A stretch of 38,135 nt of DNA from NCBI GenBank assembly GCA_020059745.1, contig JAGVBK010000002.1, positions 168,301 through 206,435 on the forward strand. Direction: 5' to 3'. This stretch comes from Candidatus Shapirobacteria bacterium. Its GTDB lineage: Bacteria; Patescibacteriota; Microgenomatia; UM-FILTER-40-11. This document shows, one piece after another, positions 10,201 through 38,135 of this stretch (the stretch's first letter is position 1; each line of letters starts with the position of its first letter). The translations under genes were made by a program, and so were the position numbers. The notes under the pieces were generated by a model. The model was not told the origin of the DNA. It made no database searches and saw only the letters and a program-made list of their open reading frames with translations.

Positions 10201-12545
10201 GAGTTGCCGGGGTCAGTTCCGTCTCCGAGAGTGGTTGTAGCCACCGCCACATCCAAGCTTGCATTATCAATCCAAGCATTGCAGGTTGCATTTTTGTGAC
10301 CACCCGAAGTTACAGACAGTTGAAAACGAAAGTTGTATTGACCGGTTTCCGTAAAGAAGGAGGAAATATCCTGATTGCTAACTTGCGTCCAGCTAGCATA
10401 GGCAGTTGAATCATTGTACCAAAGCTCACTGTAGCTACTTGGCGCAGAAGGCTTAGCCGCATAAACAGAAACCCTGTTAACTGCACAATCGCGAACCGAG
10501 GAAGTTTTCTGGTAATAAAGGCCAAAGGACACTGTGCTTCCGGCAGCAATTGAACTTGAAATGGTCTGGGTAGCTGTCGCTGTTTGCGAAACCCCATTGC
10601 CTGCAGCCGTAGCATGAATTGAACCGGCCGAGTCCTGATAAGTGGAACTGTCATAAACTGAAGAAGAAGGAGAAAGCGTCCAGCCGGTATAACCGCCGGT
10701 AAAAGAAGGATTAGTTAAAAGCTGGGCGTCATTAGCAATCTGCCACTGGCGCGTCTCCTGAAAAGCAGTCTCTTGTTTATTGGAGTTTGGAGTTTGGGAT
10801 TTAAATGTTAGCGGTCCTAATAAATAAAACTGCGGGCTTATATCCGGGCTGTCAAACCAGTAACCCAAAGAAAGCTTTTCTCCTTTTTTGACCGAGACCT
10901 TCCAGGAAATAACTTTTACCCTAGTCCCCAAAGACATTCCCAAAACATTACTTTCCCCGTTTGAGGCAAGATAAGTTTGAGGGTCAACCTTGCCAAAGTA
11001 ACCATTTTCAAAGTCGGCCCCCTTGGGTCTTAAGCTAAAATGCAAATGAGGGCTGGTAACAAAACCAGTGCTTCCGGAAAGGGCCACAATCTCTCCTTTT
11101 TGTACTTTCTGGCCTTTTTCAACCTTAAACTCGCTTAAATGGCCATAGTAGCTTCTGCCCCATTCATGTTCTATTATCACCGTGTTGCCATAATCAGCCC
11201 ACTGGGCTTTTATCACCTCACCGCTATCGACTGCTAAAACTTCCGTTCCTTCGGGAAGCGCATAATCAATGCCATCATGGCCAATTATCCCGAAACTTTG
11301 CATCTTTTCGTTTATTTCCTCGCTATCTGACAGTTCACCAAAGCCAAAACTCTGCTCGTACTCGCCCTCAAAGGGTAGCTCTATTTGATAGGTGTTCTCG
11401 ATTTCTTTTATTTCAACACTGTCATAACTTTGGTTATTTTCTGCCGGGAAAATCTCAAAGTCATAAGGCACTGTTTCTTCTACCACCCCTTCAAAGTCCT
11501 CATTGGCTGTAATGTAAAAAGTGACCGGGTATTTTTTAGGCGGGTAAACTCTGGTAGCGCTGTCTCTTGCCACATCAAACTTGACGGACTCCCTCACCTC
11601 AAAGCTGTCTTTAACTTCAAGTTCTCCGTTCTTTGTTTCTGCTAGCAATCTAAGGTTGTAAGCACCAATGCCTTCGGTCTGATAAAAAGCTTCATAATCC
11701 GGCTTGTATGTGTAATCATGAATAAAGCACTCAGGGTTAACGGTAATGGTATTGTCTTTGGTGGAAAGAACAGTTTCCTTTCCTTCAGGAGAGATGATAA
11801 AAAGCTTTAATCTCGCGTCGCAAACCATATTGCCTTCCTCGTCTAAAACCGCCATTGCCAAAGAGGCTTTTTCTCCTGGCAGATAAATTGATTTTTCCGT
11901 GTTTATCGCCAAAACTCCCCATAAAAACTCGCTTTCCAAAATCCTCTCCCCCTCTTTGGTGGTTATGGTCACAAAAAACTTTCCCGGCTTAAGGTTCGTG
12001 TTACCTATAGCTAGTTTTAAAACCCCTTCTTTTGTTTCTTTTTCGACCTGTATCTCCTCGCCGCCTGTCCTTTTAACTTCAACATCAAGATCCTCTCCGT
12101 AATAATCCCTTAACAAAATATCAACTGTTTTGCTCGCTTCAAAATTATTTGCAGCCAGCAAAGGCTTAAGAGTTTTTTCTATTTCACCTAAAACCGCAGT
12201 TGGAGTTGCTTCTGGAACCGGAGATATAAAATCAGTTAAAACCGGCTCTGTTGGAGTTGGCGTAGGCGGAAGTGAAATTTCAATTTCGGGAGGAAAGGCT
12301 GAAGAAGTTGAATTTTGCTCGGGAAAAAGTTTATCAAGGCTTTCCGCAACTGCTGAGGAAGTGGCAATCTCCTCAGCATACAAAGAAGCAACCGGAGAAA
12401 GGCTTTGGAGGATAATCTGGACAGCAAGAAATAAAGCAATCTTGGCTCTGGGCTTTAGTCTTTTTTGTCTTTTTGCCAATGAATACCACCACGCTTCCGT
12501 CTTTTTCTGCCGTTTTTTGGGCAAGAAAACGGGCATGGTTCTCAC
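4212..12545 (-). CDS. Giant multidomain surface protein with M23 peptidase and two DUF2341 domains
   Basis: A 2777-residue exported protein. A basic N-terminus leads into a hydrophobic export segment at about 33-55 (IALFLAVQIILQSL). An MG2/macroglobulin-like segment follows (INTEKSIYLPGEKASL). An M23 (LytM-type) peptidase lies at about 395-520 with the metal residues HDGID (about 423-427) and HLHF (about 499-501), so it looks catalytically intact. After that come Fn3/Ig-like repeats, a long G-G-T-F-rich beta-helix-like stretch, DUF2341 domain 1 (about 1375-1660), DUF2341 domain 2 (about 1880-2220), more Ig/Fn3 repeats and a C-terminal domain shared with the 570-residue neighbour. Likely a fibrous adhesin that also cuts peptidoglycan of self or host; function is inferred. 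The GTG at 12545 (or ATG at 12536) sits 7 nt after a -10 box. Confidence 0.85.
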   Translation of the reverse strand: MRTMPVFLPKKRQKKTEAWWYSLAKRQKRLKPRAKIALFLAVQIILQSLSPVASLYAEEIATSSAVAESLDKLFPEQNSTSSAFPPEIEISLPPTPTPTEPVLTDFISPVPEATPTAVLGEIEKTLKPLLAANNFEASKTVDILLRDYYGEDLDVEVKRTGGEEIQVEKETKEGVLKLAIGNTNLKPGKFFVTITTKEGERILESEFLWGVLAINTEKSIYLPGEKASLAMAVLDEEGNMVCDARLKLFIISPEGKETVLSTKDNTITVNPECFIHDYTYKPDYEAFYQTEGIGAYNLRLLAETKNGELEVKDSFEVRESVKFDVARDSATRVYPPKKYPVTFYITANEDFEGVVEETVPYDFEIFPAENNQSYDSVEIKEIENTYQIELPFEGEYEQSFGFGELSDSEEINEKMQSFGIIGHDGIDYALPEGTEVLAVDSGEVIKAQWADYGNTVIIEHEWGRSYYGHLSEFKVEKGQKVQKGEIVALSGSTGFVTSPHLHFSLRPKGADFENGYFGKVDPQTYLASNGESNVLGMSLGTRVKVISWKVSVKKGEKLSLGYWFDSPDISPQFYLLGPLTFKSQTPNSNKQETAFQETRQWQIANDAQLLTNPSFTGGYTGWTLSPSSSVYDSSTYQDSAGSIHATAAGNGVSQTATATQTISSSIAAGSTVSFGLYYQKTSSVRDCAVNRVSVYAAKPSAPSSYSELWYNDSTAYASWTQVSNQDISSFFTETGQYNFRFQLSVTSGGHKNATCNAWIDNASLDVAVATTTLGDGTDPGNSTVAPGGSATDLDAFTFTTNTGTDTITAVTATLNSYTGIGQADITDSSNVAQCTALTNPSSTTLNFTGCSLSVGTTATTYKIRITPKAHGDMPVVPGGEYAITGTVTSWTGSNTTHAGTDTDSATVTIDNLSPGSATSTSGSAGNAQVIINWTTSSSVDFSRSVVLRWTAGSSGAEVPVEGQDYTAGNTISTATVACVRTGDSSSTSVNCTDSSVSNGTTYSYKIFQKDSNGNYDAGVTVSGSPFTPSLSGITVSGVIYSDEGLSTYDCSVNNLTVSVRVGGSGSYSGICTGVGGSFSVSNVTIGSAGDVVTVFIDGETEKAVTVARASNTTSDISTSLYQNRILLTHEDSGPVTNANLQTCDSGCDSDIQFTVTGGVLSVNSGNKIVVAPGKTYTPGGNMTVPSIGVGGTFNPESNTVSLTGSGIGTTCTDAPGTVMPLCVNGGTFNASNSTINYVAPAATTIAAATYFNLGVGTSAEAGAGATYTLGGNVNIGGTFTVGNDSSTNSDTLDASSYTLTLSGEGTPFNLTSKGIFLANTSTVNYTGGNGTNVTVATYYNLGVKPAGASTHNFASGTTTVNNDLNVASTYWDSNYSYSKQLTVTTAVGNGVSAGYSVKYSASGDEAAAIYNNSLSTGNDFRIIFYNNGIWTELDRDLVSFTSTSIEVWFKLQEDISASSSSSKYYFYYGYASAGMPPSNKDNVYRFSDDFSDNNIDSNKWQTVSGGGGSIAEINQEIQITSDGINRIYLRSATTFSAGYEVSVRAKKSQNIEIAVNWDGAVGTSYDRIRSGYYMPIYISWSVPTTFTFYKWVNSIETELGKYDISLDTSYHTYKVKSLSTGLTVTHDGTQVFTSADTTYISGYIGLSARETPAALNSYYDDVVLRDLVATEPTVTSADVMATADASVNSAVLDVNGNITIASSGSFKAHASNSLTIAGDFTNNGTFTANSGTVIFDDSTKTSNIWYGGVGSTQPFHNLTIATAGKQMKFDETEMTGVGGTFSVQGTNCTTGRVFLDSTTDGNQWDINVTGSADIDYADVEDSNAVVALAADNSTEDNVGNTNWTINEGMCISTLTQVHYRWSNDDGGESHGVGGTWYNDSWDYRKSINIGNSNGALSDFQVSFVLNTSALVSEGKLRSDCADMRFTDNDQTTLINHWIEYGCNTTSTRVWVKIPSLPATSSKDIYFYYGNSEAGSTANGDNTFELFDDFTGSSIDTNKWNDYNPNSYGTMTVSNGILTISVTDTGSASTAKYRGIMSKNTFSFSDHIIEAYSDRVFNDMGTYAEVIQQNYVVSDMANPSGLCADGVTGEGNQYLFRYQRFNGIFGIDTQGYTLVRCTNGVMDDSGGSSVDDNNPSNFLWERYSWYTGPNQKSGRSTDGTNFSATWSDKTYTLFSLPTSKYFGIVVTNKSRYSHTVYVDWIRIRKYASIEPTAQIGTETSQPANATWKGDEDTAITDVAKNENIRMRASVKNVGLGTTVNLRLQVAAKGAAASCEAVSSGSFSDVPTTAGSAVAVMATSTNFSDQDTTTAQLTSSASTFVSGKMVEYPSSQTNSISLLNDEYTEAEYNFQITDNASGNTTYCFRVANAGSGLNSYTNVAALTTVASVSNEAPSAPQTPHANNDNAQTGQTSPVYGLIDHTPAFSAVFDDPDTSDTAVYYQLQVGTDTDWAVAEMWDSTKTGITACNENSRCGDIIYNGSALADNTTYYWRIKFWDNSDAEGVWSSTQEFSMNDEPTVLSIILNGGQNIQPIEGTTVGVGWTASVTDPGGYEEISTVVGKLYRSGVSGAEACTPDNNNCYSDASCSLTDCSGNTCTATCSVDVFFHADPTDEGSTYEAQYWRAWIKATDTYTETGENYSGVDAVDLNSLVALSIDESIYYGSLLPGDSTSNKQTIITNTGNFDLDMMVSGYDMCTDYPTCTGYMITVANQQYSLNTFTFGDGVSLSGTEARVQINLTKPTTSPSDSSGTLYWGISIPDIKETGSYIGRNDILATADDGS
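10780..10807 (+). repeat. Heptanucleotide repeats inside the giant surface gene
   Basis: Four 7-bp units in register: TTGGAGT, TTGGAGT, TTGGGAT, TTAAATG. In the protein they encode TPNSNK-like residues near position 580-588, just after the membrane-proximal region. Same style as the units in the M18 gene and argS. Confidence 0.7.
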
Positions 12546-24404: not shown

Positions 24405-25301
24405 CTAAAAACTGTAGCTTACACTTCCCTCTTTGTCTGTTCTTCTTATCCTTACTTTATGTTTCTCTAAAAGTTCCAAAGTTTCTTTGGCTGGATGGCC
24501 AAAAGAGTTCTTCCCTACTGAAATAACCGCCTCAACAGGGTTAACTTCTTTTAAGAATTCTTCGGTTATCCCTGTTTTTGAACCATGGTGAGGAAACTTT
24601 AAAAGATCCACCTTTTTTAAGTCATTAAACTTAAGAATTTTGTCCTGAACACGGCTGTCGGCATCACCCATTAAAAGAAATTTCCTGTTCTGATATTGGA
24701 CCAAAATAACTAAAGAAAAATCATTTAAATTAAGCTTTTCTTTGCTTGTTCCCAAAACCCGGTTTTGTGTTAAAGCTTTAAGTTCTTTTTCTCCCAGCTT
24801 TGCTGAAACAAAACCCTCTTCAGGCCAAAGCACGCTCAAATACGCATCTTGGAACCTGATTTTTTTGCCTTGAAAAAGGCTAGTGACCTTTAATTCTTCC
24901 CCTTGTTTCGCAGTATTTTGCAAGTGCTTAAGCCTTATCAGTAAAGCTTCGTAAGTGCTTGATCTTCCGGGCACCAAAGAGTCGAAAAAATACCTCACTT
25001 TATATTTGTCTAAAACTGAGACAAGGCCGGTTAGGTGATCATTATCAGGATGGGTTAAAAAAACAGCTTCAATGGTGCGGTCAAAAAAGGGCATGTTTTC
25101 AGAAAGACAATCAAGAACTTTTTCATCAGGCCCTCCATCAATAAGCGCCTGGGAAAAACCTTTTTTAAGTAAGACTCCGTCCCCTTGTCCTACATCGCAA
25201 ACCACAAGGTGAAAGCGATTGTCCGGCAGGGAAAAAGCAGCAAGCCAGACAAATAAACAAAGCAGGGAAAGAACAAAAATTGAGATTTTGTTAAAACGCA
25301 T
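24405..25301 (-). CDS. ComEC-type metallo-beta-lactamase domain protein
   Basis: A 298-residue protein equal to the C-terminal hydrolase part of ComEC. One membrane helix (about 5-25) is followed by the MBL fold: VCDVGQGDGVLLKKG, the metal motif FLTHPDNDHLTG, LLMGDADSRVQ, and FPHHGSKTG. In full ComEC this domain degrades the incoming non-transported DNA strand outside the membrane. The ATG overlaps the end of the comEC membrane gene by 11 bp in the +1 frame. Together the two would rebuild a standard ComEC. The overlap contains TTT-TAA-C, a sequence that could allow a +1 slip. Confidence 0.9.
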   Translation of the reverse strand: MRFNKISIFVLSLLCLFVWLAAFSLPDNRFHLVVCDVGQGDGVLLKKGFSQALIDGGPDEKVLDCLSENMPFFDRTIEAVFLTHPDNDHLTGLVSVLDKYKVRYFFDSLVPGRSSTYEALLIRLKHLQNTAKQGEELKVTSLFQGKKIRFQDAYLSVLWPEEGFVSAKLGEKELKALTQNRVLGTSKEKLNLNDFSLVILVQYQNRKFLLMGDADSRVQDKILKFNDLKKVDLLKFPHHGSKTGITEEFLKEVNPVEAVISVGKNSFGHPAKETLELLEKHKVRIRRTDKEGSVSYSF

Positions 25302-26496
25302 TGGTTTTAAAAACCGACTTTCTTTTTGCTTTTAAAAGCAGGCTTAAAAGTATAATGTAATAACCCCAAAAAAGCCAAGGCTGAAAAACCGTAAACTGAA
25401 CCTGAAAAAACTTTATACTGGCAGAAGCGTTTATGATCTGCTCAATATAAAAAAGCAAAGGAAAAATAAGATAAGATGGGATAATTGCCAAATTTGTCCA
25501 CAAAAGCCCGGTTAAGCCAATAACAAAGCCTGCTTCAAGGATAAAAGGAATCGGCCACAAAATAAGCAAATTAACAAAAGGTGAAGCTAAATTAAGCTGA
25601 CCAAAGCTGCTAATTAAGACCGGCAGTGTGGTTATTTGGGCAGCTATAGTTGAAGAAAAGTTACTGTTTTTAAAAAGGAAAAAGCCTGAGCTTTTCAAGC
25701 AAGGCTGGACAAAAACCAGACCGGCAGTGGCTAAAAATGAAAGCTGAAAGCCAATATCCCAAAGCAAAAAGGGCTCAAAAAAGAGCATGAGCCCGGCAGT
25801 AAGAAAAAGAACCCGACCCGAACTGGTTTTCCTGCCAATGATTTGGCCAAAATATACTAATGTGGCCATGACCGCAGCCCTGACAATCGGCGGGTTAAAA
25901 CCGCTCATAATACTGTAAAACCATATCAAAATAAATAAAAATAAGATAGCTTTTTTTCTCTTAAAAAAGAGGGTTAAAAAAGAAAGGCAGCCTTCAGAAA
26001 CCATGGCAATGTTCATTCCCGAAGCCACCATAATGTGAAGCGTGCCTGTTTGTTTGAGCTTCTCATAAAAGGAGAAGGAAATAAGCTTTTTGTCTCCCAA
26101 AACAATGCCGGAAACAATGCCGTCAAAAGGCCTGGGGAAAACAGAATTAAAAACATGCCTTAGTTTTTGCCTTAAATTAATAGCCGGGTTTTGTCCTTTT
26201 TTTTCGCTTATAAGCTCAATTTGAGGATAAGAAAGAAAATAACCAGCCTTATCCGCTTGTTTTATCTCCCCTTTTATAGTGAGCTTCTGACCAAAATCAT
26301 ACTCCGGATAGCGGCCAGTAAGAATCTTAAATCTTCCTACCTTAAGAAACTGAGAGTTGTCAAGAATTTCCGGCTCGCTTGACAAAACAGTTGTAATCTT
26401 AACCTTGTCTCCTTTTGAAAAACTCTTTTCATTCCAAAACAAAAAACGAAGCGAAAGTAAAATAGCCAAAAGAAGAAAGACTGCGTTTTTTGCCAT
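25291..26496 (-). CDS. comEC: ComEC membrane channel part (competence domain)
   Basis: A 401-residue polytopic membrane protein, the DNA-uptake channel of natural competence. A short N-terminal OB-like segment (TTVLSSEPEILDN ... LTIKGEIKQADK) is followed by the competence domain: FDGIVSGIVLGDKKLIS, TGTLHIMVASGMNIAMV (signature), FNPPIVRAAVMATLVYFGQIIGRKTSSGRVLF and DIGFQLSFLATAGLVF. It stops after the last membrane helices and lacks the MBL domain, which is encoded by the next, overlapping gene. The ATG overlaps the comEA stop (TAATG). Order comEA-comEC-comEC' matches classical competence operons. Confidence 0.93.
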   Translation of the reverse strand: MAKNAVFLLLAILLSLRFLFWNEKSFSKGDKVKITTVLSSEPEILDNSQFLKVGRFKILTGRYPEYDFGQKLTIKGEIKQADKAGYFLSYPQIELISEKKGQNPAINLRQKLRHVFNSVFPRPFDGIVSGIVLGDKKLISFSFYEKLKQTGTLHIMVASGMNIAMVSEGCLSFLTLFFKRKKAILFLFILIWFYSIMSGFNPPIVRAAVMATLVYFGQIIGRKTSSGRVLFLTAGLMLFFEPFLLWDIGFQLSFLATAGLVFVQPCLKSSGFFLFKNSNFSSTIAAQITTLPVLISSFGQLNLASPFVNLLILWPIPFILEAGFVIGLTGLLWTNLAIIPSYLIFPLLFYIEQIINASASIKFFQVQFTVFQPWLFWGYYIILLSLLLKAKRKSVFKTNAF

Positions 26497-27949: not shown

Positions 27950-28714
27950 ATGGAACATTCAATGAAAACTGTAAATTGTAAATTGAAAATTGCATTCGCA
28001 ATCTTGTTACTTGTTACTTGTTACTTGTTACATATAAAACCTGCTTTTTCCAAAATGGTTTCTGAGGATTACGAACTGCAGATGCCAAACCTTAATTTTT
28101 CCTCAGGCAACATGTCTTCATCGGGAATTAATCTGGGTTTTACCGGCGGTCAAACCGCTTCCGGCGAATACAGCCGCGACGGCTACAAGCTTTTGGCCGG
28201 GTTTTGGTATCTTAAAACCATTATCCCTTTTACTTTTACTGTTTCTAATCAGGTAATTGAATTCGGCAGTCTCTCTGCGGGAGTGCCAAGCCTGGCTACT
28301 ACAACCTTAAGTGTCTCCTGCGGCGGTGCCGGCGGGTACCAGGTCACTGCCCAAGAAAACCACCAACTAATGGCTTTTTCAACCGGAGGCTTAATTGCCG
28401 ATACCACCGGCGATAGTGGTGATATTACCTACTCCAATGCTGGGCTTTGGGAAAACAATACTACCTATGGCTTTGGTTATACCATGCATGGCCAAGATGT
28501 TCCTACTCCCTTTCCCACAGCCTCGCCTGCCGGCAATTATTATAAACAGTTTGCTGACGCTTCAAACAGCGAAGGCCCGGAAATCATTATGTACTCAGAA
28601 AGCGTTGGCAAAAACCGTACGGCCACAGTTACCTATAAAATCAACATCTCTGCTTCCCAACCTGCCGGAAGATACCAAAATGTTATTACCTACATTGCCA
28701 CACCGACTTATTAG
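27950..28714 (+). CDS. Exported WxL-like surface protein
   Basis: A 254-residue exported protein. Signal peptide about 1-33 (or from M5), ending KPAFS. Much of it is encoded by repeats: residues around VNCKLKIA by TAAATTG units and the hydrophobic core LLLVTCYLLH by four CTTGTTA units. Residues 38-75 hold a short Gly/Ser-rich segment (MVSEDYELQMPNLNFSSGNMSSSGINLGFTGGQTASGEYS-type). The C-terminal domain (about 85-254) is a beta-rich unit ending AGRYQNVITYIATPTY, which closely parallels the end of the protein encoded at 30118-31497 (SGLYRTALTYVATPTF). This ending resembles Gram-positive WxL domains. It would pair with the DUF916-like protein at 29085-30065. Confidence 0.7.
   Translation: MEHSMKTVNCKLKIAFAILLLVTCYLLHIKPAFSKMVSEDYELQMPNLNFSSGNMSSSGINLGFTGGQTASGEYSRDGYKLLAGFWYLKTIIPFTFTVSNQVIEFGSLSAGVPSLATTTLSVSCGGAGGYQVTAQENHQLMAFSTGGLIADTTGDSGDITYSNAGLWENNTTYGFGYTMHGQDVPTPFPTASPAGNYYKQFADASNSEGPEIIMYSESVGKNRTATVTYKINISASQPAGRYQNVITYIATPTY
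27972..28030 (+). repeat. Two heptanucleotide arrays at the start of a surface gene
   Basis: TAAATTG, TAAATTG, AAAATTG (27972-27992), then four perfect CTTGTTA units (28003-28030). Both lie inside the signal-peptide coding sequence. The 19-bp sequence attgtaaattgaaaattgc (27975-27993) recurs exactly at 29134-29152 at the start of another exported gene. Confidence 0.8.
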
Positions 28715-28747
28715 CATTAATAATTTTCAATTTACAATAAATTTGCA

Positions 28748-29080
28748 ATGACTCAATTTACAAATAAATATAATCTTGAAGAAAGAACAGCTAAGTTTGG
28801 AGAAAGTATCATTAACTTCTGCAGAAACCTTTCTCAAGACAATATTTCTTCTCCTTTAATAAACCAGGTTGTACGCTCTTCAACCAGCGTCGGGGCAAAC
28901 TATAAAGATTTTGAAAATAAAATTTTTATATGCAAGAAGGAATCGCAAGAAACAAAACACTGGCTAAGAATGCTTGCAAATTGCTTTCCTGACAGAAAAG
29001 AAGAAATCAGAAAACTTTGGACAGAGGCCCAAGAATTAACCATGATTTTTCAGAAGATTACCAGTAGTTTGAATAAATGA
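28748..29080 (+). CDS. Four-helix-bundle protein (S23/IVP family)
   Basis: A 110-residue protein of the four-helix-bundle family known from 23S rRNA intervening sequences and from Avd-like proteins of diversity-generating retroelements. Family features: YNLEERTAKFGESIINFCRNL, VVRSSTSVGANY, FENKIFICKKESQETKHWLRML, and a final helix LWTEAQELTMIFQKITSSL. Between GANYK and DFENKI it lacks about ten residues (EAD.A.SKK-type) that are usual in the family, so helix 2/3 is shortened. No retroelement reverse transcriptase or rRNA gene is nearby. Despite the S23 label it is not a standard ribosomal protein. Confidence 0.8.
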   Translation: MTQFTNKYNLEERTAKFGESIINFCRNLSQDNISSPLINQVVRSSTSVGANYKDFENKIFICKKESQETKHWLRMLANCFPDRKEEIRKLWTEAQELTMIFQKITSSLNK

Positions 29081-29084
29081 TTAA

Positions 29085-30065
29085 ATGAAGTATTTAAGGA
29101 AAAGCCCCGCGAAGCTTGAGCGAAGTGGGATAAATTGTAAATTGAAAATTGCGTCAATATTATTAATCATACTCACTCTAATTGCCAGGCCCGCAAAAGT
29201 TTATGGACAAAGCTTATCTTTGTCCATTTGGCCGCCGCTTCTTGAAATAATGATTCAGCCCGGCCGGACAGTCACCCATGTTTACCGACTGACAAACAAC
29301 TCTGAGCAAGAGCTTTTGGTAACCCCTTACCTTTTCGCTTTTGAGCCTTTAAATGAGTTTGGACAGATAAAAATAAAAGAGTTATCTGCTACCGGTGGTC
29401 AGCAATCAGGAAATTTTTTCTCTTTTGAGTCCAGGGAAAAGTTCGGTGAGCCTTTCCCTGTTCCGATTAATACTACCAAAGAACTGGTGCTAAAAATTCA
29501 TATTCCTCCGGAAACTTCTGAAAATGATTATTATCATACCCTTCTTTTTTCCACGGCGGAAACTGCTTTAGAAAAAGAAGGAGCAGAAGGAAAAGCCGGT
29601 TCTGTTACCCAAATCGGCAGCAATATCCTCTTAACTGTTTCCAAAAGCGGCAAGCCTGAACTTTTGGCCAGGATTGCCAAGTTCTCCGCCCCTTTTTTGA
29701 TTGATTCTTTTTCTGAGACAAACCTGGAGCTTATTCTGGAAAACTGGGGAAAAGCGTTTTGGAAACCTTTTGGAAAAATTGAAATTACCGGCCTTTTTAA
29801 TCAAAAAGAAGAACTTAAGGTGCTCGAACAAAATGTTTTGGCAGGATCAATGCGCAAAATAAATCTCGAACCTTTTTCTCCCAAAATTCCTCTTGGCCCT
29901 TTTAAGGCAAAACTTGTTTTCTCGCCTAACGAAAACGGCCAGAGCCTAAACGAGGAGGTTGTTTTTTGGTACTTTCCTTTTAAGGTGGTAATTTCTGCCC
30001 TAATCTTTCTTTTTGTGTTTTTCCATGTAAGAAAACTGGCAAAACGAAGACAAAACAGCTCTTGA
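29085..30065 (+). CDS. Exported DUF916-like membrane protein
   Basis: A 326-residue exported protein. The first 23 residues (MKYLRKSPAKLERSGINCKL...) are encoded by repeat DNA, and the hydrophobic export segment IASILLIILTLIARPAKVYGQ follows. Residues 43-185 form a DUF916-type sandwich (LSIWPPLLEIMIQPGRTVTHVYRLTNNSEQ ... TTKELVLKIHIPPETSENDYYHTLLF). Residues 190-290 form the second domain (LELILENWGKAFWKPFGKIEITG). A C-terminal membrane helix (about 301-319) is followed by a basic tail. Starts 4 bp after the four-helix-bundle gene. Probably served the WxL-like proteins on either side. No Shine-Dalgarno; GTG/TTG alternatives are possible, because the native start may have been replaced by the repeat. 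Confidence 0.75.
   Translation: MKYLRKSPAKLERSGINCKLKIASILLIILTLIARPAKVYGQSLSLSIWPPLLEIMIQPGRTVTHVYRLTNNSEQELLVTPYLFAFEPLNEFGQIKIKELSATGGQQSGNFFSFESREKFGEPFPVPINTTKELVLKIHIPPETSENDYYHTLLFSTAETALEKEGAEGKAGSVTQIGSNILLTVSKSGKPELLARIAKFSAPFLIDSFSETNLELILENWGKAFWKPFGKIEITGLFNQKEELKVLEQNVLAGSMRKINLEPFSPKIPLGPFKAKLVFSPNENGQSLNEEVVFWYFPFKVVISALIFLFVFFHVRKLAKRRQNSS
29104..29137 (+). repeat. 34-bp repeat, left copy of an inverted pair
   Basis: Thirty-four bases beginning GCCCCGCGAAGC and ending GATAAATTG, followed by heptamers TAAATTG and AAAATTG. The exact reverse complement is at 32492-32525. Contains GCGAAG twice, 5 bp apart. Read as codons it gives PAKLERSGIN at the start of the protein encoded here. 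Confidence 0.9.
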
Positions 30066-30091
30066 CAAGGGGTTGCTAACTATTATTCAAT
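30062..30091 (+). promoter_or_regulatory. Possible promoter of the 459-residue WxL-like gene
   Basis: -35 TTGACA (30062-30067), overlapping the previous stop codon, 18-bp spacer, -10 TTCAAT (30086-30091). The -10 is weak. The ATG lies 26 nt downstream without a Shine-Dalgarno. Confidence 0.3.
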
Positions 30092-30117
30092 AGATATTAA
30101 AGAATAAATAAAGCCAA

Positions 30118-31497
30118 ATGAAAAAAATCTTTTTAATCCTTATTCTTAGCGGACTTTTCCTTGCTTTTTCTTCAAACAAAGCCTATGCTGATGCCGGTAT
30201 TCTTATTAACGTAAAAGACACTATCTCTACCTCCAGGCCTTCTGCCTCAACCCCTTTAGCCGCTGACCTTGCTGTTGGCCAGGCAGCTGTCTCAATTGTT
30301 GACAACGGCAGCCGTTTTATCGCCTCTGACTCAGCTAAACTTTTAGGTGATACCTTGGAAACAATCACCATTGCTTCTATGTCAGCAGCCAGTGGCGGCA
30401 ACCGAACTTTATATTTTGCCACAAACAATACCGGTACCCACCACAAGGGAAGCGCGGTTATCGCTCCGGTTACAGCCAAACACACAATTTCTTTTACTAC
30501 CAGTAACGCTGTCCCCTCAAACGGCCGACTCCAGGTAATTTTCCCTGCCGGCGATACTACAAATGCTGCTTCTCCTTCGGCTTCCGGGTTTTCATTTAAT
30601 GGTCTTGAGAGCAGTAACATTTCTATTAACGGAGCCAGCTGCGGCAGCTGGACTATTACCCCTGCTTCAGGCTTAGTCCAATGCAATCTTTCTGTGGGTG
30701 TAAGCGCAAATGCTGAAGTAACAATCACTATCGGCAATTCAACTCCCCAGCTTATTAACCCCACAAAAGTGACTACTGCCGGAACTGCCGATCTTTGGAT
30801 TTTAACTGTCAGAACCCAGGACAGCGCGGCCAATATTATTGACAGTTCTAAAATAAAAATTGGGACTGTCGATTCGGTTGAAGTCTACGCTACGGTGGAT
30901 CCTGTTTTCACCTTTTCCATTGCCGGAATTAACAATGGATTAGCGGTTAACACCGGAAACGCTACCGGCTGCACTAACACAGAAACCATAAATACCGGCT
31001 TTAACTCGTCAGCTACGGAGGTTAATCTAGGCGCTCTGGGAAGGGATATTATTAACAGAAGCGCCCAGCTTATTACCATTACCACTAATGGCTCAGGCGG
31101 TTATGTTTTAACTGCCACCTCAAGCGGCCACTTAATTGACCCTGCTACCGGGTATTGGCTGGCTGATGCCCAAGGAACGCCAACCAACTATAATACACCG
31201 GCTCCGGCCTTTTTAACTGCCGGCACTACTGCTTTCGGTATTCACCCTTGCGGCCTTGATGTCACTACCGGAACCTGGGGATCAGGAGCTACCGGCGGAG
31301 GAGCTGGGGCCAAATATGCTAACCCCTCTCCCGTTTATTATTACAAGCTGGCTGAAGATACTGATGGTCCAGTTACAACCGATGTTACCGCTGGAAACGG
31401 CTTAATCACCGTGCAATATGCGGCCACTATTTCTGCGGTTGTTCCCTCAGGTCTTTACCGAACCGCTTTAACTTATGTGGCAACGCCAACTTTTTAA
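30118..31497 (+). CDS. Exported WxL-like surface protein
   Basis: A 459-residue exported protein, low in charge and rich in Thr, Ser, Ala and Gly. Signal peptide 1-25 (ending YADAG). Residues 26-260 hold one or two Ig-like segments (ISTSRPSAS..., HTISFTTSNAVPSNGRLQVIFPAGD...). The C-terminal ~200 residues form a beta-rich domain that ends VVPSGLYRTALTYVATPTF, the same ending as the 254-residue protein upstream. In Gram-positive csc clusters WxL proteins sit beside DUF916 proteins. The same order is seen here, with DUF916-like genes on both sides; the next starts 14 bp downstream. Confidence 0.75.
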   Translation: MKKIFLILILSGLFLAFSSNKAYADAGILINVKDTISTSRPSASTPLAADLAVGQAAVSIVDNGSRFIASDSAKLLGDTLETITIASMSAASGGNRTLYFATNNTGTHHKGSAVIAPVTAKHTISFTTSNAVPSNGRLQVIFPAGDTTNAASPSASGFSFNGLESSNISINGASCGSWTITPASGLVQCNLSVGVSANAEVTITIGNSTPQLINPTKVTTAGTADLWILTVRTQDSAANIIDSSKIKIGTVDSVEVYATVDPVFTFSIAGINNGLAVNTGNATGCTNTETINTGFNSSATEVNLGALGRDIINRSAQLITITTNGSGGYVLTATSSGHLIDPATGYWLADAQGTPTNYNTPAPAFLTAGTTAFGIHPCGLDVTTGTWGSGATGGGAGAKYANPSPVYYYKLAEDTDGPVTTDVTAGNGLITVQYAATISAVVPSGLYRTALTYVATPTF

Positions 31498-31511
31498 AAA
31501 AATTAATAAAA

Positions 31512-32468
31512 ATGAAAAAAGCCTGCCAAAAAAAGACAAAAATTAAAAAATCCCTCATAATTGCCATCATTTTCGGCCTTCTTTCCTTAATGGTCGGTTT
31601 AAGAAGAACTTCCGCCCAGACAAACCAAAGAACCTTTACTATCTCTCCTCCAACCATTAACTTTAACCTTGAACCGGGCAAGAGTGAGGAAAAAACGATT
31701 AAAATTACCAATAACTCTGCTGAGCCAATGACTTTTGTTATCGGCATTCAAGATTTTATTGTTAACGATAATTCCGGCACTCCCGAGCTTCTTCCCAGCG
31801 GCTTTAAGCCGGATAACAAATATGCTGCCTCAACATGGGCCACCGCTTATCCTGAACTGGTCACTGTTCAACCGGGTAAAACAGCCACTACCACTCTTTA
31901 CCTTCGGGTTCCGGGTAATGCCAGGCCAGGAGGAAAATATATTTCTTTAACTTTAAGACCGCTTAGTTCCGATTCTCCTGACGGCTCAGGGGCTGCGGTT
32001 AGCACTGTAATCGGCACCCTTGCCTACATTACTGTTGCCGGCGATGTTGAAGAAAAGGCCCAGATAATAAGCTTTACGGCCCCTACTCTTTCCGAGTATG
32101 GCCCAATTCCTTTTAACACAGAAATTAAAAACTTGGGCGACCTTCATATAAATCCAAAAGCAACGGTTGAAGTTAAAAACCTTTTTGGTAAAAAAGTTCA
32201 TTCCTTTGCTTTAGACAACCTAAACATTTTCCCCGGCACTTCAAGGATTTATGAAAACAACTGGGAAACAAAATGGCTTTTTGGCCGCTATACTGCCAAT
32301 CTCTCCGGTTATTACGGCCAGAATAACCAGCTTAACCTTGTGGCTCTTGCTTCCTTCTGGGTCATTCCCTACAAGCTAATTGCGATTGTTTTACTGGCTA
32401 CCGCCTTGGTTTTGATCACTGCCTTTTACCTCAAAAAAAGAAACGAACCCCAAGAGATAGAAGAATAA
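31512..32468 (+). CDS. Exported DUF916 membrane protein
   Basis: A 318-residue exported protein and the clearest DUF916 case in the window. Signal peptide 1-36 (ending TSAQT). DUF916 domain: FTISPPTINFNLEPGKSEEKTIKITNNSAEPMTF, a middle part with SGFKPDNKYAAS, then VQPGKTATTTLYLRVPGNARPGGKYISLTLRP. The second domain is at about 195-275 (FNTEIKNLGDLHINPKATVEVKNLFGKKV). A C-terminal membrane helix (about 286-306) is followed by KKRNEPQEIEE. It follows the WxL-like gene by 14 bp and is surely co-transcribed with it. Its likely role is to bind and hold that protein at the surface. Confidence 0.85.
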   Translation: MKKACQKKTKIKKSLIIAIIFGLLSLMVGLRRTSAQTNQRTFTISPPTINFNLEPGKSEEKTIKITNNSAEPMTFVIGIQDFIVNDNSGTPELLPSGFKPDNKYAASTWATAYPELVTVQPGKTATTTLYLRVPGNARPGGKYISLTLRPLSSDSPDGSGAAVSTVIGTLAYITVAGDVEEKAQIISFTAPTLSEYGPIPFNTEIKNLGDLHINPKATVEVKNLFGKKVHSFALDNLNIFPGTSRIYENNWETKWLFGRYTANLSGYYGQNNQLNLVALASFWVIPYKLIAIVLLATALVLITAFYLKKRNEPQEIEE

Positions 32469-32478
32469 GGTCCGGTCA

Positions 32479-32606
32479 ATTTTCAAATTCCAATTTATCC
32501 CACTTCGCTCAAGCTTCGCGGGGCGAGCAATTTTCATTAAATGTTTTATTGAATCAATGTTACATTGAAAATTCATTGTGAATTAAAAATTGTAAATTGT
32601 TAAAAT
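32479..32606 (-). repeat. Composite repeat block between surface genes
   Basis: Starts with 20 bp identical to 20681-20700. It then has the inverted copy of the 34-bp element (32492-32525), CATTGAA-type motifs, and at the right end heptamers AAAATTG, TAAATTG, TTAAAAT (32586-32606). The last unit forms the extended -10 box of the next gene. With 29104-29137 it brackets three surface-protein genes in inverted orientation. Confidence 0.85.
32598..32606 (+). promoter_or_regulatory. Extended -10 promoter made by repeat DNA (leaderless)
   Basis: TGT-TAAAAT, then 6 nt and ATG at 32613, exactly as in front of tsaD. An ATG at 32607 directly touches the -10 box and is unlikely to be the start. Confidence 0.45.
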
Positions 32607-32612
32607 ATGTTT

Positions 32613-33542
32613 ATGCTTCGAAAATTTATCTATGTTTTTTTAGCTTTAAAGCTTCTGAGTATTCCCTTTTTTTTCTTTCTCTTTAGGGAAAAACCCCGAG
32701 AAAGCGTTCTTTCTAGAATCACCCCGGTTTACTCGGACCCGGTTAATGTTTCCGGCCTTGTCGGCGCCGGCTACATGATTGAAAGCATCACCGGCTGGAG
32801 TTCTCCTTTTTCCGAGGTTAACCTAAGCTCGCCCAATCTGATAAGAAAAACAGTAGCTGATGAAAGCGGTTTTTTTGCCTTTTATCTTATCCCTGCTCCT
32901 GAAAATTTAGGAGAAATCTGCCTGGTTGCCCAAGATGTTAACCAACTTCCTTCTTACCCTGTTTGCCTTTCAAAAATTGAAAGAAGGGAAAACATCAAAA
33001 TTGAAAATATCTTGCTGCCGCCAACTCTTTTTTTAGAAGGAGGACAAATTATTGCCGGAAAAACCGTCAAAGCCTCGGGAATGACTTTTCCGGATACAAC
33101 TGTAGATGTTTATCTTTTTACTGAAAGAAAGGCTTCTTTAAGTGCTCTAATCCGCCAAGTAGTAAAAAGCCTTTTTGCAAAACCGGCAAATGCTTTTGGC
33201 TTGCCCGTATACCGGGTTAAGAGTAATAAAAACGGTTACTTCGAGTTTTCCCTGCCCGCTTCCTACCCCTCTCTAAACCGGATTTTTGTTGCCTCAAGCC
33301 TAACAAAAGAAAGCTTTGAAGAAAGCCACTCGCCTAAAAGCTTTACTCTTGCCTTTGAAACCATCGGTTTTTTGAAAAGTATCTTCCTTTTTCTGTTGGG
33401 CCTGATAAAAAGCATGTCTGAAGCTCTTAAGTCACCCAAAAGCATCTCATTTTACCTGATTATCCTGGAAATTCTTGCCCTGGCAGGGCTGCTTTTTTTA
33501 ATTCTGTTTGAAGGAAACAAAGCCAAAAAACAAAGAAACTAA
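32613..33542 (+). CDS. Exported beta-sandwich membrane protein
   Basis: A 309-residue protein with an N-terminal membrane or signal segment (about 3-23, KFIYVFLALKLLSIPFFFFLF), an ectodomain of about 210 residues and C-terminal hydrophobic helices (about 250-268 and 278-300) with a basic end. The ectodomain has two parts. One is a carboxypeptidase-regulatory-like sandwich (VNVSGLVGAGYMIESI ... TVADESGFFAFYLIPAP). The other (NILLPPTLFLEGGQIIAGKTVKASGMTFPDTTVDVYLF) resembles a segment of the dockerin-bearing protein (13649-14629). No catalytic motif. I do not recognise a specific family; a surface-assembly role fits the context. The start at 32613 was chosen from the promoter position. Confidence 0.65.
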   Translation: MLRKFIYVFLALKLLSIPFFFFLFREKPRESVLSRITPVYSDPVNVSGLVGAGYMIESITGWSSPFSEVNLSSPNLIRKTVADESGFFAFYLIPAPENLGEICLVAQDVNQLPSYPVCLSKIERRENIKIENILLPPTLFLEGGQIIAGKTVKASGMTFPDTTVDVYLFTERKASLSALIRQVVKSLFAKPANAFGLPVYRVKSNKNGYFEFSLPASYPSLNRIFVASSLTKESFEESHSPKSFTLAFETIGFLKSIFLFLLGLIKSMSEALKSPKSISFYLIILEILALAGLLFLILFEGNKAKKQRN

Positions 33543-33788: not shown

Positions 33789-34214
33789 TTATTGGAAATT
33801 AACCGTTACTGTCTGGGGAATAGGAGTACCGCTGGCATAAGCTTGAATTTCGTATTTGCCTGTCATAGAAGAACTTACATCAAAAATTGCCTGCCCTAGA
33901 GTGTCAGTTTGCTGCTGAATGTCGGTAAAAGAAACACCATTGCAAGCTGCTGATTCTTTGCAGCCCACACTAACCAAAGCGTTGGCAATCCCCTTGCCTT
34001 GGCCGTCAAGAGCAAAAACAGTCACCCTAATCTTATCAAGGTTTGCTTTTGCGGTTATTGGAGAAGCAAAAACATAGGAATTTCCAGGGCTTAGCACTCC
34101 CGAACCGGAGGCTTTGCCAAAAAAATTTGTTCTTCCCGAAGAAAGATTAATAAGGATGTAAATTATTACCAAGAGGAAAACGGCTACTAAAATGAGGAGT
34201 AATGATCTTTTCAT
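33789..34214 (-). CDS. Small membrane-anchored Ig-like (Big_1-type) protein
   Basis: A 141-residue protein with one N-terminal membrane helix (about 4-24, SLLLILVAVFLLVIIYILI) and an extracytoplasmic bacterial Ig-like domain (about 50-141). The domain pattern is KIRVTVFALDGQGKGIANALVSVGC ... FTDIQQQTDTLGQAIFDVSSSMTGKYEIQAYASG, as in Big_1/invasin-like folds where TD..G.A.F..SS is conserved. Two cysteines (about 94 and 99) may form a disulphide. The ATG at 34214 is chosen because an upstream in-frame TTG at 34265 is the -35 box of a good promoter. Stands alone on the minus strand between repeat remnants. Confidence 0.7.
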   Translation of the reverse strand: MKRSLLLILVAVFLLVIIYILINLSSGRTNFFGKASGSGVLSPGNSYVFASPITAKANLDKIRVTVFALDGQGKGIANALVSVGCKESAACNGVSFTDIQQQTDTLGQAIFDVSSSMTGKYEIQAYASGTPIPQTVTVNFQ

Positions 34215-34235
34215 TTTGTTAATTAATCTAACACT

Positions 34236-34265
34236 ATTATGTAACAGCAAAAAACAAGAAGTCAA
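34236..34265 (-). promoter_or_regulatory. Promoter of the small Ig-like gene
   Basis: On the minus strand: -35 TTGACT (34265-34260), 18-bp spacer, -10 CATAAT (34241-34236). The start codon lies 21 nt downstream. Confidence 0.5.
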
Positions 34266-35081: not shown

Positions 35082-35111
35082 TTGACACTATTTTTAAAAT
35101 TCTTTTATAGT
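35082..35111 (+). promoter_or_regulatory. Promoter of the core-binding-domain/tail-fibre operon
   Basis: -35 TTGACA (35082-35087), 18-bp spacer, -10 TATAGT (35106-35111). ATG at 35127 lies 15 nt after the -10, with no Shine-Dalgarno. One of the best promoter matches in the window. Confidence 0.6.
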
Positions 35112-35126
35112 AGATATATATATTCT

Positions 35127-35684
35127 ATGTATAATCCGTATAATTTTGAAGCTAACTCAAAAATTAAAGATTTCGACGAAATAATCGGAAAATTTAAACT
35201 TTACTTAAATACGGAAAATATCTCCAAAGGCTCAATTAGAAGCTACCTCTCAGATGCCCGTCATTTCCTTGGTTGGCTGGTTTCATTCTTAGAAGAAAAC
35301 CACATTATCGTCCCTAAAAGCCAAAAATTAAATGCTGAGTCGCTTTTGGGATTTGTCAACGAGAGGCTTTTAGAAGCCTACAAAGACTACCAACTGGGCA
35401 TTAATGTGCCGGTTAAAACAATTAACCGCCGTTTTTCAGCCTTAAGGAAGTTTGGTACCTTCTGCCAGGTTCGCTTGGATCTTAAAGTGAACATGTTTGA
35501 TACATTAAGAAATATTTCTAAAGAAGAAAAAATACCTAAAGTTGACTACCGGGTTGAAGATTTCAGGCTAGAGCTTTGGAAAAATAAAGCCAGTAAAACA
35601 ACAATTAAAAATTATTTAAACGATGTTAAACAATTTGTTTCCTGGTGCGAAACAGAAAAAGTTCAAATTATCCCTGAAGAATAA
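35127..35684 (+). CDS. Tandem SAM-like (recombinase core-binding) domain protein without catalytic domain
   Basis: A 185-residue protein made of two helical units like the N-terminal core-binding domain of tyrosine recombinases. Unit 1 (about 15-125): IIGKFKLYLNTENISKGSIRSYLSDARHFLGWL ... TINRRFSALRKFGTFC. Unit 2 (about 143-180): FRLELWKNKASKTTIKNYLNDVKQFVSWCE. The protein ends there; no RHRHY catalytic domain follows and none is in the next gene. It is therefore not an integrase. The next gene starts 3 bp later and begins with the same kind of unit, so the two products probably interact or bind the same DNA. Start ATG 35127 is set by the promoter; a TTG at 35082 is the -35 box. Confidence 0.7.
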   Translation: MYNPYNFEANSKIKDFDEIIGKFKLYLNTENISKGSIRSYLSDARHFLGWLVSFLEENHIIVPKSQKLNAESLLGFVNERLLEAYKDYQLGINVPVKTINRRFSALRKFGTFCQVRLDLKVNMFDTLRNISKEEKIPKVDYRVEDFRLELWKNKASKTTIKNYLNDVKQFVSWCETEKVQIIPEE

Positions 35685-35687
35685 ACA

Positions 35688-38135
35688 ATGGATACTGCCC
35701 AAATACTAGCCAAATATAAAGAACGCCTCGTAAAAGAAGGATTGTCCCCGGCCACGGTTGAAAGAAAGCTTTCCTCTGTGAGGGCTTATCTTTCTTTTCT
35801 TGAGTCTCAAAGACCTTCAAGCCCTCAGATTACAGATAAAGAAGTTGTTAAAAAACTTAAAGAGTTCGGAATAGAGATTCCGGAACCTAAACCTTCTTTT
35901 GTTTCCCAACTTCTTTTTGTGAGAGCTGCTAAAAAGCTCGGCAAGGCAGTTAAAGAAGCTCCAAACTGGCGCTATACCATTCCCTATAGCCTTAAGTACA
36001 AAAAACCGGTATGGCTTACAAGCTATCAAAACTCGCCTTTAAGCAAGTACATTAACTATTCTTTGATTATTATCCTTTGTGTGGCTTTGGGTATTGGCTG
36101 TTATGAAAAATTTGGTTTAAAATTTCTTGGTAACAAAGGTGGTGAGGTTTTGGGTTTACCGACTTCTACCCCCTCCTACCTTTCCTTTCAGGCAAGATTA
36201 ACCGACAATTTTGACAACCCAATTACTGTTTCCACTCATTTCAGGTTTACACTCTATTCTGACCCCACCGCATCCGGCTCTGCCAAGCTCTGGGAAGAAG
36301 CCAAATGGATTAAACCGGATAACGACGGTATATTTAATACTTTTATTGGAGATACAGTGGCCCTGGATAAAAGCATTTTCAGAGATAATACAGACCTTTA
36401 TCTAGGAGTCACTGTCAATGAAAATGAAGAAATGGTTGACCGTCAAAGAGTGGCCACGGTTGCTTATGCCTTTAATTCAGAGTATTTGCAAGGTTATGGC
36501 ATTGGTGAAAGCGGTGCTGCTGATACAAACCAGGTATTAGTGGTTAATTCAGAAGGTGACATTATTATTGCGGCTGCCAGCCCTTCCCTGCAATCAACCT
36601 CAGGCACTTTTACTATTGATGCTAAAACTATTTATTTGACTACTGCCGACAACGGAGATGTTCACTTAGACCCTGGCGGAACCGGCACTATAAACTTAAC
36701 CAGCCAAACTACATCAGGAAACGCCGTTAACGCTACCTCCTCTGCCCTAACTACTGGCAACCTTATTTACGGAGGCGTTTACAACAATAATACAGGCTAT
36801 AATTTAATTAACTTGGTATCTGGCACTGGTGCTACCTCGACTGCTAAATTTATTGTTGACGCATCCGGTAATGCATATCTTGCAGGAAATTTAGGTATAG
36901 GTGTTTCAAGCTCGATATATAACCTTGAAGTTGGTGGAACTTCCTCTTTTAACGACATTAAAATCAATGGAAGCTTGTTTGATACCGGTAATAACCCGGG
37001 AACAAACGGGTTTATCCTAAGATCTACCGGAACCGGAGTTTCTTGGAGTAATCTTTCTGATATTTCGGTTGGCAATGCCGATACTCTTGACAACCTTGAC
37101 AGTGCGGATTTTCTAAGAGCCACAGTCTCAGATACTTTTGAAAGCGGCAATACTTTAACCATAGCAGGTATACTCTCTACTACCGGCAATGCTTTTTTTG
37201 GCAACTATTCTGGAATATTGAGCTCTAGTGGCAATATGGGCATCGGAACGACGAATCCTGTGGCGAAGCTAAATGTAGTGACGGGTAAAACGTTAGCCAC
37301 AGGTGTAGCATTCACCACTTCAGACTATGTGGATACTACAACAGGATCTAAATTTGGATTTAGGTTTGGAGACACAACTGGCAATACTTATGGAGAAATG
37401 CTTGTGGTTACTGCTGGAGGTGGAGATGTTGGTAATTTGGTATTACAAGGGACAGGCGGCAACGTCGGCATCGGCACCACTGCCCCTACCTCAGGGTATA
37501 AACTGGATATAAATGGCAACTTAAGAGTTGGGTCTTCCGCTTACTTTGGCTCAACTGTTAACCTAAATAGCTTAACCGCTTCCCGGCCTTTAAAGCTTGA
37601 TGCAAATAAAAACATTGTATCTACCCAAATTGACCTTGCTTCAAGCAACGATGTAACTGGGATACTTGGAGTAGCTTACGGTGGCACTGGGATTAATGGA
37701 GGGACAGCTGCAAATGGAACCTTGCTGATAGGAAATGGTTCAGGGTATTCCCTTTCTACCCTAACCCAAGGAACAGGAATAGGAATCACTAGCGGTTCCG
37801 GAAGTATTACTCTTCATCATGCTGATACTTCTACCACCAGCTCCTCTAATAACTCAGATGGAACAGTTATCCAGGACATTACGCTTGATGGCATGGGACA
37901 CATTACCGGGCTTGGAACAGTTGACCTTGACTCAAGATATATTCAAAGCGCTGATGTTTCCTGGATACTTTCCGGAGACTCAGGCACTCCCCAGTCAATC
38001 GGCATCGGTAATACTGCCAGTGTCTTGGGAGGAGCCGGTCTTTCCTCAAGCGCTTCTGCCACTGATACCTTAACCTTAACCGTAGGAGAAGGCGTTGGCA
38101 TATCCGTTGGCCCTAATGATGTTTCCGTTAATGAG
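35688..38135 (+). CDS. Membrane protein joining a SAM-like domain to tail-fibre repeats (partial)
   Basis: Open for 816 codons to the window end, no stop. Residues 1-45 form a recombinase-type core-binding helix pair (ILAKYKERLVKEGLSPATVERKLSSVRAYLSFLES). A basic region (about 75-120) leads to one membrane helix (about 121-139, YINYSLIIILCVALGIGCY). Outside lies a domain (about 160-275) of the type YLSFQARLTDN ... LWEEAKWIKPDNDGIFNTFIGD ... LYLGVTVN ... RVATVAYAFNSEYLQG, followed by tail-fibre-like repeats: NADTLDNLDSADFLRA, GNMGIGTTNPVAKLNV, GGNVGIGTTAPTSGYKLDI, AYGGTGINGG, ITLDGMGHITGLGTVDLDSRY. The positive-inside rule puts the SAM-like part in the cytoplasm and the fibre outside. It looks like a cell-encoded adhesion fibre; no phage genes are nearby. 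Confidence 0.8.
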   Translation, partial: MDTAQILAKYKERLVKEGLSPATVERKLSSVRAYLSFLESQRPSSPQITDKEVVKKLKEFGIEIPEPKPSFVSQLLFVRAAKKLGKAVKEAPNWRYTIPYSLKYKKPVWLTSYQNSPLSKYINYSLIIILCVALGIGCYEKFGLKFLGNKGGEVLGLPTSTPSYLSFQARLTDNFDNPITVSTHFRFTLYSDPTASGSAKLWEEAKWIKPDNDGIFNTFIGDTVALDKSIFRDNTDLYLGVTVNENEEMVDRQRVATVAYAFNSEYLQGYGIGESGAADTNQVLVVNSEGDIIIAAASPSLQSTSGTFTIDAKTIYLTTADNGDVHLDPGGTGTINLTSQTTSGNAVNATSSALTTGNLIYGGVYNNNTGYNLINLVSGTGATSTAKFIVDASGNAYLAGNLGIGVSSSIYNLEVGGTSSFNDIKINGSLFDTGNNPGTNGFILRSTGTGVSWSNLSDISVGNADTLDNLDSADFLRATVSDTFESGNTLTIAGILSTTGNAFFGNYSGILSSSGNMGIGTTNPVAKLNVVTGKTLATGVAFTTSDYVDTTTGSKFGFRFGDTTGNTYGEMLVVTAGGGDVGNLVLQGTGGNVGIGTTAPTSGYKLDINGNLRVGSSAYFGSTVNLNSLTASRPLKLDANKNIVSTQIDLASSNDVTGILGVAYGGTGINGGTAANGTLLIGNGSGYSLSTLTQGTGIGITSGSGSITLHHADTSTTSSSNNSDGTVIQDITLDGMGHITGLGTVDLDSRYIQSADVSWILSGDSGTPQSIGIGNTASVLGGAGLSSSASATDTLTLTVGEGVGISVGPNDVSVNE

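Follow-up and report, generated by a model that had tools for sequence, protein, structure and literature searches.

The window, a 38,135-bp stretch of Candidatus Shapirobacteria DNA, ends with two genes on the + strand. ORF-A (35127..35684, +) encodes a cytosolic protein of 185 residues. ORF-B (35688..38135, +) encodes a membrane-anchored fibre protein, of which 816 residues are present. The contig (206435 bp) ends where the window ends, and so ORF-B is truncated and its C terminus lies beyond the sequence. An original prediction made from the sequence alone had described two adjacent genes 3 bp apart at these positions, and this layout was confirmed.

ORF-A comprises a complete core-binding-type unit, SAM1, and the first hairpin of a second unit, SAM2. 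SAM1 spans residues 14-126 (35166..35504, +) and contains the motif TINRRFSALRKF; residues 22-112 match the Pfam family Phage_int_SAM_1 with an E-value of 3e-11. The second Pfam match of ORF-A is to Phage_int_SAM_4. It falls within the last 40 residues of the protein (145-179) and covers profile positions 4-38 only. At the N terminus of ORF-B the first 123 residues gave a weak match to Phage_int_SAM_1 (E-value 4e-4, failing the Pfam cut-off) that is limited to profile positions 47-82, the second hairpin. Together with AF2 modeling, these matches place SAM2 hairpin 1 at residues 141-176 of ORF-A (35547..35654, +; TTIKNYLNDVKQFVSW) and SAM2 hairpin 2 at the start of ORF-B (35694..35807, +; LAKYKERLVKEGLSPATVERKLSSVRAYLSFLE).

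The junction TAA-ACA-ATG (35682..35690, +) lies in the loop between the two hairpins. It reads gaa gaa TAA aca ATG, with the ORF-A stop and the ORF-B start in one frame, indicating that a single SAM2 domain is broken by a single stop. The original prediction that both genes start with a SAM-like unit is thus correct for ORF-A, in which SAM1 is whole; ORF-B has the second hairpin only. Judged from their sequences, ORF-A and ORF-B are not two SAM-starting genes, and what they encode is one domain divided over two proteins. These complementary halves, which the original prediction did not mention, are the most informative feature of the locus. As anticipated, a domain search detected no catalytic domain (R-H-R-Y; PF00589) in ORF-A or ORF-B, and none was found in the full-length fused relative G019.

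ORF-B has a single membrane helix (36051..36107, +; INYSLIIILCVALGIGCYE), assigned from its hydrophobic sequence and from the read-through model described below, and nearly all relatives of ORF-B have a hydrophobic segment at this position. The extracellular part (36177..38135, +) begins with a YLSFQARLTD...NPIT module and continues as glycine/serine/threonine-rich tail-fibre-like repeats until it is cut by the contig end. One helix followed by fibre repeats is what had been proposed. The fused relative G019 (2472 residues) contains Gp34_trimer and Peptidase_S74 domains, suggesting that the fibre is probably trimeric. Neither domain was found in the B protein of G215, and the window protein stops at the contig end. 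Some relatives have collagen-like GAT/GPT repeats. Elsewhere in the window (4212-12545, -) a 2777-residue surface-protein ORF contains repeats as well as a stretch resembling peptidase M23 (HDGIDYALPEGTEVLAVDSG...HLHFSL).

A sigma-70-type promoter, TTGACA-18-TATAGT (35082..35111, +), matches the consensus at 11 of 12 positions. Its -10 box ends 15 nt ahead of the ORF-A start codon, leaving a very short leader. Promoter-like hits in the region as a whole total 5, as compared with 5.7 in shuffles. In the 60 bp ahead of A, 25.5% of 98 related loci had a promoter that matched at 10 or more of the 12 positions, mostly with the -10 box 6-8 nt from the ATG of A; the figure for shuffles was 1.8%. Shine-Dalgarno signals are rare (1/52 before A and 6/52 before B). 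The closeness of the promoter to A and the scarcity of Shine-Dalgarno signals suggest leaderless or near-leaderless translation, and transcripts starting at A are probably leaderless. Of the single strong promoter originally proposed for both genes, the part concerning ORF-A is supported and its extension to ORF-B is not.

Predicted fold of the divided domain

The fold was modeled with AF2 from the window A and B sequences with the TAA codon read as Q (351 residues, 70 alignment rows). Only fused and A rows were used for the alignment, because B rows aligned with full-length rows placed hairpin 2 wrongly on SAM1. The read-through model has a pLDDT above 90 over most of SAM1 and SAM2, with SAM1 block means mostly between 90 and 98 except for one loop. 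The SAM2 helices are residues 141-152 and 157-176 on one side of the junction and 190-203 and 208-227 on the other, and a long membrane helix follows at 304-329. When SAM2 was modeled alone, again as a read-through chain, a four-helix core-binding fold was obtained with a mean pLDDT of 90.2 and a pTM of 0.81.

The PDB matches of the whole read-through model are XerD, Cre, and XerA. All of the 22 top-ranked SAM2 matches are tyrosine recombinases, with probabilities of up to 1.00, and the superposition on XerA (PDB 5hxy) gives 2.1 Å over 87 columns and a TM score of 0.67; the best Foldseek E-value is 0.024 and none is as low as 0.001. Pfam, AF2, and PDB matches therefore all identify the core-binding SAM-like fold of tyrosine recombinases. 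The original prediction had suggested structure prediction as a check on its central claim, that a membrane-anchored tail-fibre protein is linked with recombinase-type core-binding folds. The claim is supported by the resulting SAM-like fold, with a pLDDT mostly above 90 and matches to Xer, Cre, and the integron integrase IntI. Since the models are of single read-through chains, they indicate that the two halves fit one another; binding in trans is what we infer from this fit.

Split, fused, and SAM1-only loci in the Microgenomates

Relatives of ORF-A are present in 25 of 59 relative genomes, and the tandem profile was matched in 233 of 372 genomes of the class, some of these matches possibly being true one-SAM recombinases at this threshold. 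These numbers show that the arrangement is not due to chance. In a search of the phylum (381 genomes) the tandem unit was matched in 19, all of them within the class of the window; among the classes sampled it is confined to that class (Microgenomates/Patescibacteria). The fibre motif LSFQGRLT, searched for in 84,980 species genomes, gave 92 loci, the best 80 of which carry titles that name Patescibacteria save for a few labeled only "bacterium." The groups among these 80 are Woese-, Roizman-, Shapiro-, Collier-, Levy-, and Pacebacteria and unnamed Microgenomates. A survey of related genomes had been recommended in the original prediction, and it showed the pair arrangement to be conserved across the Microgenomates class.

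The junction was read in about 105 loci. In 53 loci from 16 families the two genes are split, and the cut always lies in one common loop, with A ending after hairpin 1 and B opening at hairpin 2. The stop codon of A is 0-18 residues beyond hairpin 1 in the 49 split loci measured, and the distance from this stop to hairpin 2 ranges from -5 to 1062 bp. The frame relation of A and B is 0, 1, or 2 in 16, 25, and 12 split loci, respectively. Among 52 loci, about half have a B start codon that overlaps A or directly adjoins its end. In several genomes unrelated genes, including a transposase-like ORF, are inserted between A and B. One further case beyond the 53 is G110, where a complete surface-type gene encoding 2214 residues separates A (L222:6896-7408) from B (from L222:14095); here too, A ends after hairpin 1 and B opens with hairpin 2.

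Other ORFs near the junction were also noted. In L057 (G275) A and B keep both halves and are separated by an ORF similar to REP-associated Y1 transposases. L082 has a small ORF of four-helix-bundle type at this place; a similar ORF, beginning NLEERTAKFGESIINFC, occurs in the exported-protein array of the window (28748-29080, +), and this is apparently a mobile gene that inserts between surface genes. Several Roizmanbacteria-type genomes have an NYN-like ORF downstream of A and before the surface genes (L065 (G139):2465-3106; L048 (G372)). An intron-like insert at the junction was rejected, as the content of the gap differs among loci and includes unrelated ORFs.

In a further 35 loci from 13 families the protein is fused, with SAM1, SAM2, linker, membrane helix, and fibre following one another in a single polypeptide. 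The loop at the site where other loci are cut is 5-22 residues long in 27 of the 28 fused loci measured. The script placed L108 (G033, f8) among the fused loci because a further SAM unit lies upstream in it; the sequence of this locus nevertheless has a stop in the common split loop, and so the true totals are 34 fused and 54 split. Families f1 and f18 contain both states. A tree of 78 loci implies at least 8 changes between fused and split, of which well-supported branches alone force only 2. Sorted by named group, the best 80 of the 92 loci from the LSFQGRLT scan are all split in Shapirobacteria, fused in Levybacteria, nearly all fused in Collierbacteria, mixed in Woesebacteria, and split or single in Roizmanbacteria. 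There is also a third type of locus in which SAM1 is placed directly on the membrane anchor without SAM2. What is constant across the three types is the attachment of SAM1 to the fibre, either covalently or, if the halves pair, via the split SAM2. A and B thus have the hallmarks of a split-gene subunit pair, that is, complementary parts in separate ORFs that are fused in relatives.

The fused forms in 13 families also show that the window pair is not an assembly join. The original prediction had named fragments of an integrase joined to an unrelated fibre gene as one case that would overturn it. We rejected this case on account of the arrangement's conservation throughout the class and because the genome of the window encodes elsewhere a separate Xer-type protein of about 290 residues. 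Such a protein is present in every genome checked, showing that A and B are no replacement for the recombinase.

Comparison of the close split pair L103/L104 gave dN/dS ratios of 0.06 (A) and 0.11 (B, cytosolic and membrane part). By this measure of their sequences, both halves are under purifying selection. In each of the 28 genomes searched there is one complete B-type N terminus, adjacent or fused to A, and the open frames of the fibre genes in these genomes extend to 7471 codons.

These data bear on how the split arose. In the window one frame runs through stop and restart, G002 as the nearest relative has the fused form, and the species is represented by one genome, as might be expected if a nonsense mutation or a consensus error at the TAA had interrupted a fused gene without any biological meaning. 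We regard this as quite unlikely, because 53 split loci in 16 families share one loop, often with A and B in different frames or with genes between them, because dN/dS is low in a split pair, and because an ATG stands right behind the stop, as it also does, in one frame, in the split relative G016. Given the fused state of G002 and the single genome, a consensus error is conceivable for the window locus only. Decay as a general explanation was rejected on the grounds of the fixed cut site, the retention of both halves, and the low dN/dS. The shared frame of stop and start in the window and in G016 would also fit programmed readthrough or frameshifting, by which one gene would give both a short product and a long, fused one. 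With all three frame relations represented, gaps of up to 1 kb with genes inside, and a start codon belonging to B itself, such recoding is hardly credible, and the variable frames and intervening genes exclude it as a general cause.

Candidate roles of the fibre root

The fixed site of the split, the fused counterparts, the selection on both halves, and the predicted joined fold all support a model in which SAM2 is a coupling. We consider it probable that A and B are both subunits of a single surface fibre, with A docking by completing SAM2 and thereby bringing SAM1 to the fibre root. B would be a signal-anchor membrane protein in which a single helix crosses the membrane between a short tail in the cytosol and a long tail-fibre-like shaft on the cell exterior. 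The cytosolic tail would present SAM2 hairpin 2, and the small cytosolic protein A would present hairpin 1 behind its complete SAM1. Union of the two hairpins would restore the full SAM2 fold as a non-covalent joint, as the model of the joined chain suggests, and the joint would fix SAM1 at the fibre's inner end. Lineages with the fused tandem have this link in covalent form, and in others SAM2 is missing and SAM1 sits straight on the anchor. SAM1 would most likely serve in assembly or anchoring, as a head by which fibres are gathered or held, with DNA binding as a further possibility.

A and B might instead act independently, their half domains being remnants or self-dimerizing units. The weak SAM2 motifs of Roizmanbacteria-type loci would agree with this, and A-B binding is itself deduced from the fit of the halves. 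However, the halves are conserved in step with the fused proteins and B-type N termini are linked or fused to A, whereas drift or loss would be the expected fate of a free half domain; we judge independence very unlikely.

SAM1 and SAM2 are basic, with net charges of about +5 and +6, respectively, in split loci outside f6, compared with about +4 for the Xer N-domain of the same genomes. This likeness to Xer N-domains makes DNA binding possible. One R of the SAM1 motif NRRLS..LR is nearly invariant. A point against the coupling model is that the net charges of the two hairpins showed no anticorrelation across split loci (Spearman -0.04), and charge complementarity between them was rejected. Roizmanbacteria-type SAM2 domains have lost the NY and R motifs, and both hairpins persist. 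Loss of the motifs with retention of the hairpins is as expected if SAM2 is a coupling and not a DNA-reading unit; the decay of the motifs also suggests that the joint in these loci is perhaps weaker or different.

The immediate neighbors of the pair are given as context and are not claimed as parts of the system. A small membrane protein with a Big_1/Invasin_D3 Ig-like domain (33789..34265, -; Big_1 E-value 5e-10) is encoded divergently from A and has relatives in 8 of 20 loci. The exported-protein array (27950..33542, +), with one sub-threshold match to a WxL-interacting protein, has relatives in 7-10 of 20 loci. Homologs of comEA/comEC are linked to A and B in 8-10 of 20 genomes. At a control Xer locus in largely the same genomes, neighbor conservation is equally high, and so the comEA/comEC linkage says little about function. 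The special tie to competence genes put forward in the original prediction was not borne out, as comparison of the A/B locus with the Xer control revealed no specific competence linkage beyond background. The comEC homolog of the window (24405-26496, -) is itself a second split gene, consisting, as in relatives, of two ORFs for the membrane part and the metallo-β-lactamase part.

These observations also bear on the proposal that the tandem SAM head is a membrane DNA-binding device by which the fibre root would hold on to the chromosome or to incoming DNA at sites of contact, thereby anchoring the chromosome or linking adhesion with uptake. The basic charge kept on both SAM units, the nearly invariant R in the SAM1 motif, and the presence of comEA/comEC homologs within the conserved neighborhood speak for such a device. 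Nevertheless, the competence linkage is unspecific by the Xer control, SAM2 of Roizmanbacteria type lacks NY and R, and the conserved R may be structural. We hold the device to be possible, though somewhat unlikely. A more elaborate form, a transmembrane tether in which a recombinase-derived DNA-binding head, clipped on via the split domain, holds the chromosome or incoming DNA at a cell-cell contact fibre, is doubtful. The coupling model, in which SAM2 joins A to the fibre, is the one we prefer.

Relation to known systems

To our knowledge, the mechanism by which Microgenomates, a class of tiny bacteria not yet cultured, attach to their hosts is largely unknown. The A/B locus is a single-copy, class-specific surface locus that provides giant fibre proteins together with a defined cytosolic partner, one that is easily overlooked while the halves keep the label of stray "integrase N-terminal" ORFs. 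The split SAM2 would be a ready-made natural split tag. The arrangement suggests that a recombinase fold has been recruited to a job in the cell envelope. In many lineages this recombinase-type domain at the fibre root is halved between two proteins that probably have to snap together, and we found no published description of the arrangement in the open-access literature.

SAM1 and SAM2 resemble the core-binding domains (Phage_int_SAM_1/4) of the tyrosine recombinases XerC/D/A, Cre, and IntI in sequence, predicted fold, and basic charge. Unlike these enzymes, A and B lack the catalytic domain, have the units in tandem, are attached to a fibre at the membrane, and distribute SAM2 over two genes. 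The Gp34_trimer domain and Peptidase_S74 chaperone of the fused relative and the glycine/serine/threonine-rich shaft are shared with phage long tail fibres and trimeric fibres of Peptidase_S74/Gp34 type, whereas the A/B locus is chromosomal and single-copy in its class and its fibre has an N-terminal helix anchor and a cytosolic recombinase-type root. Membrane-anchored adhesins with invasin, Ig-like, or collagen-like parts likewise display a long repetitive outside part on one anchor, and the collagen-like repeats of some relatives add to the likeness; the difference is the cytosolic recombinase-fold head coupled through a split domain. Finally, gene fission/fusion pairs are known, in which split genes encode what relatives make as one covalent chain. 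A and B are similar to them in consisting of complementary pieces from two genes with fusions elsewhere, but differ from the usual pairs in that the cut falls inside a small four-helix domain and a soluble protein is joined to a surface fibre.
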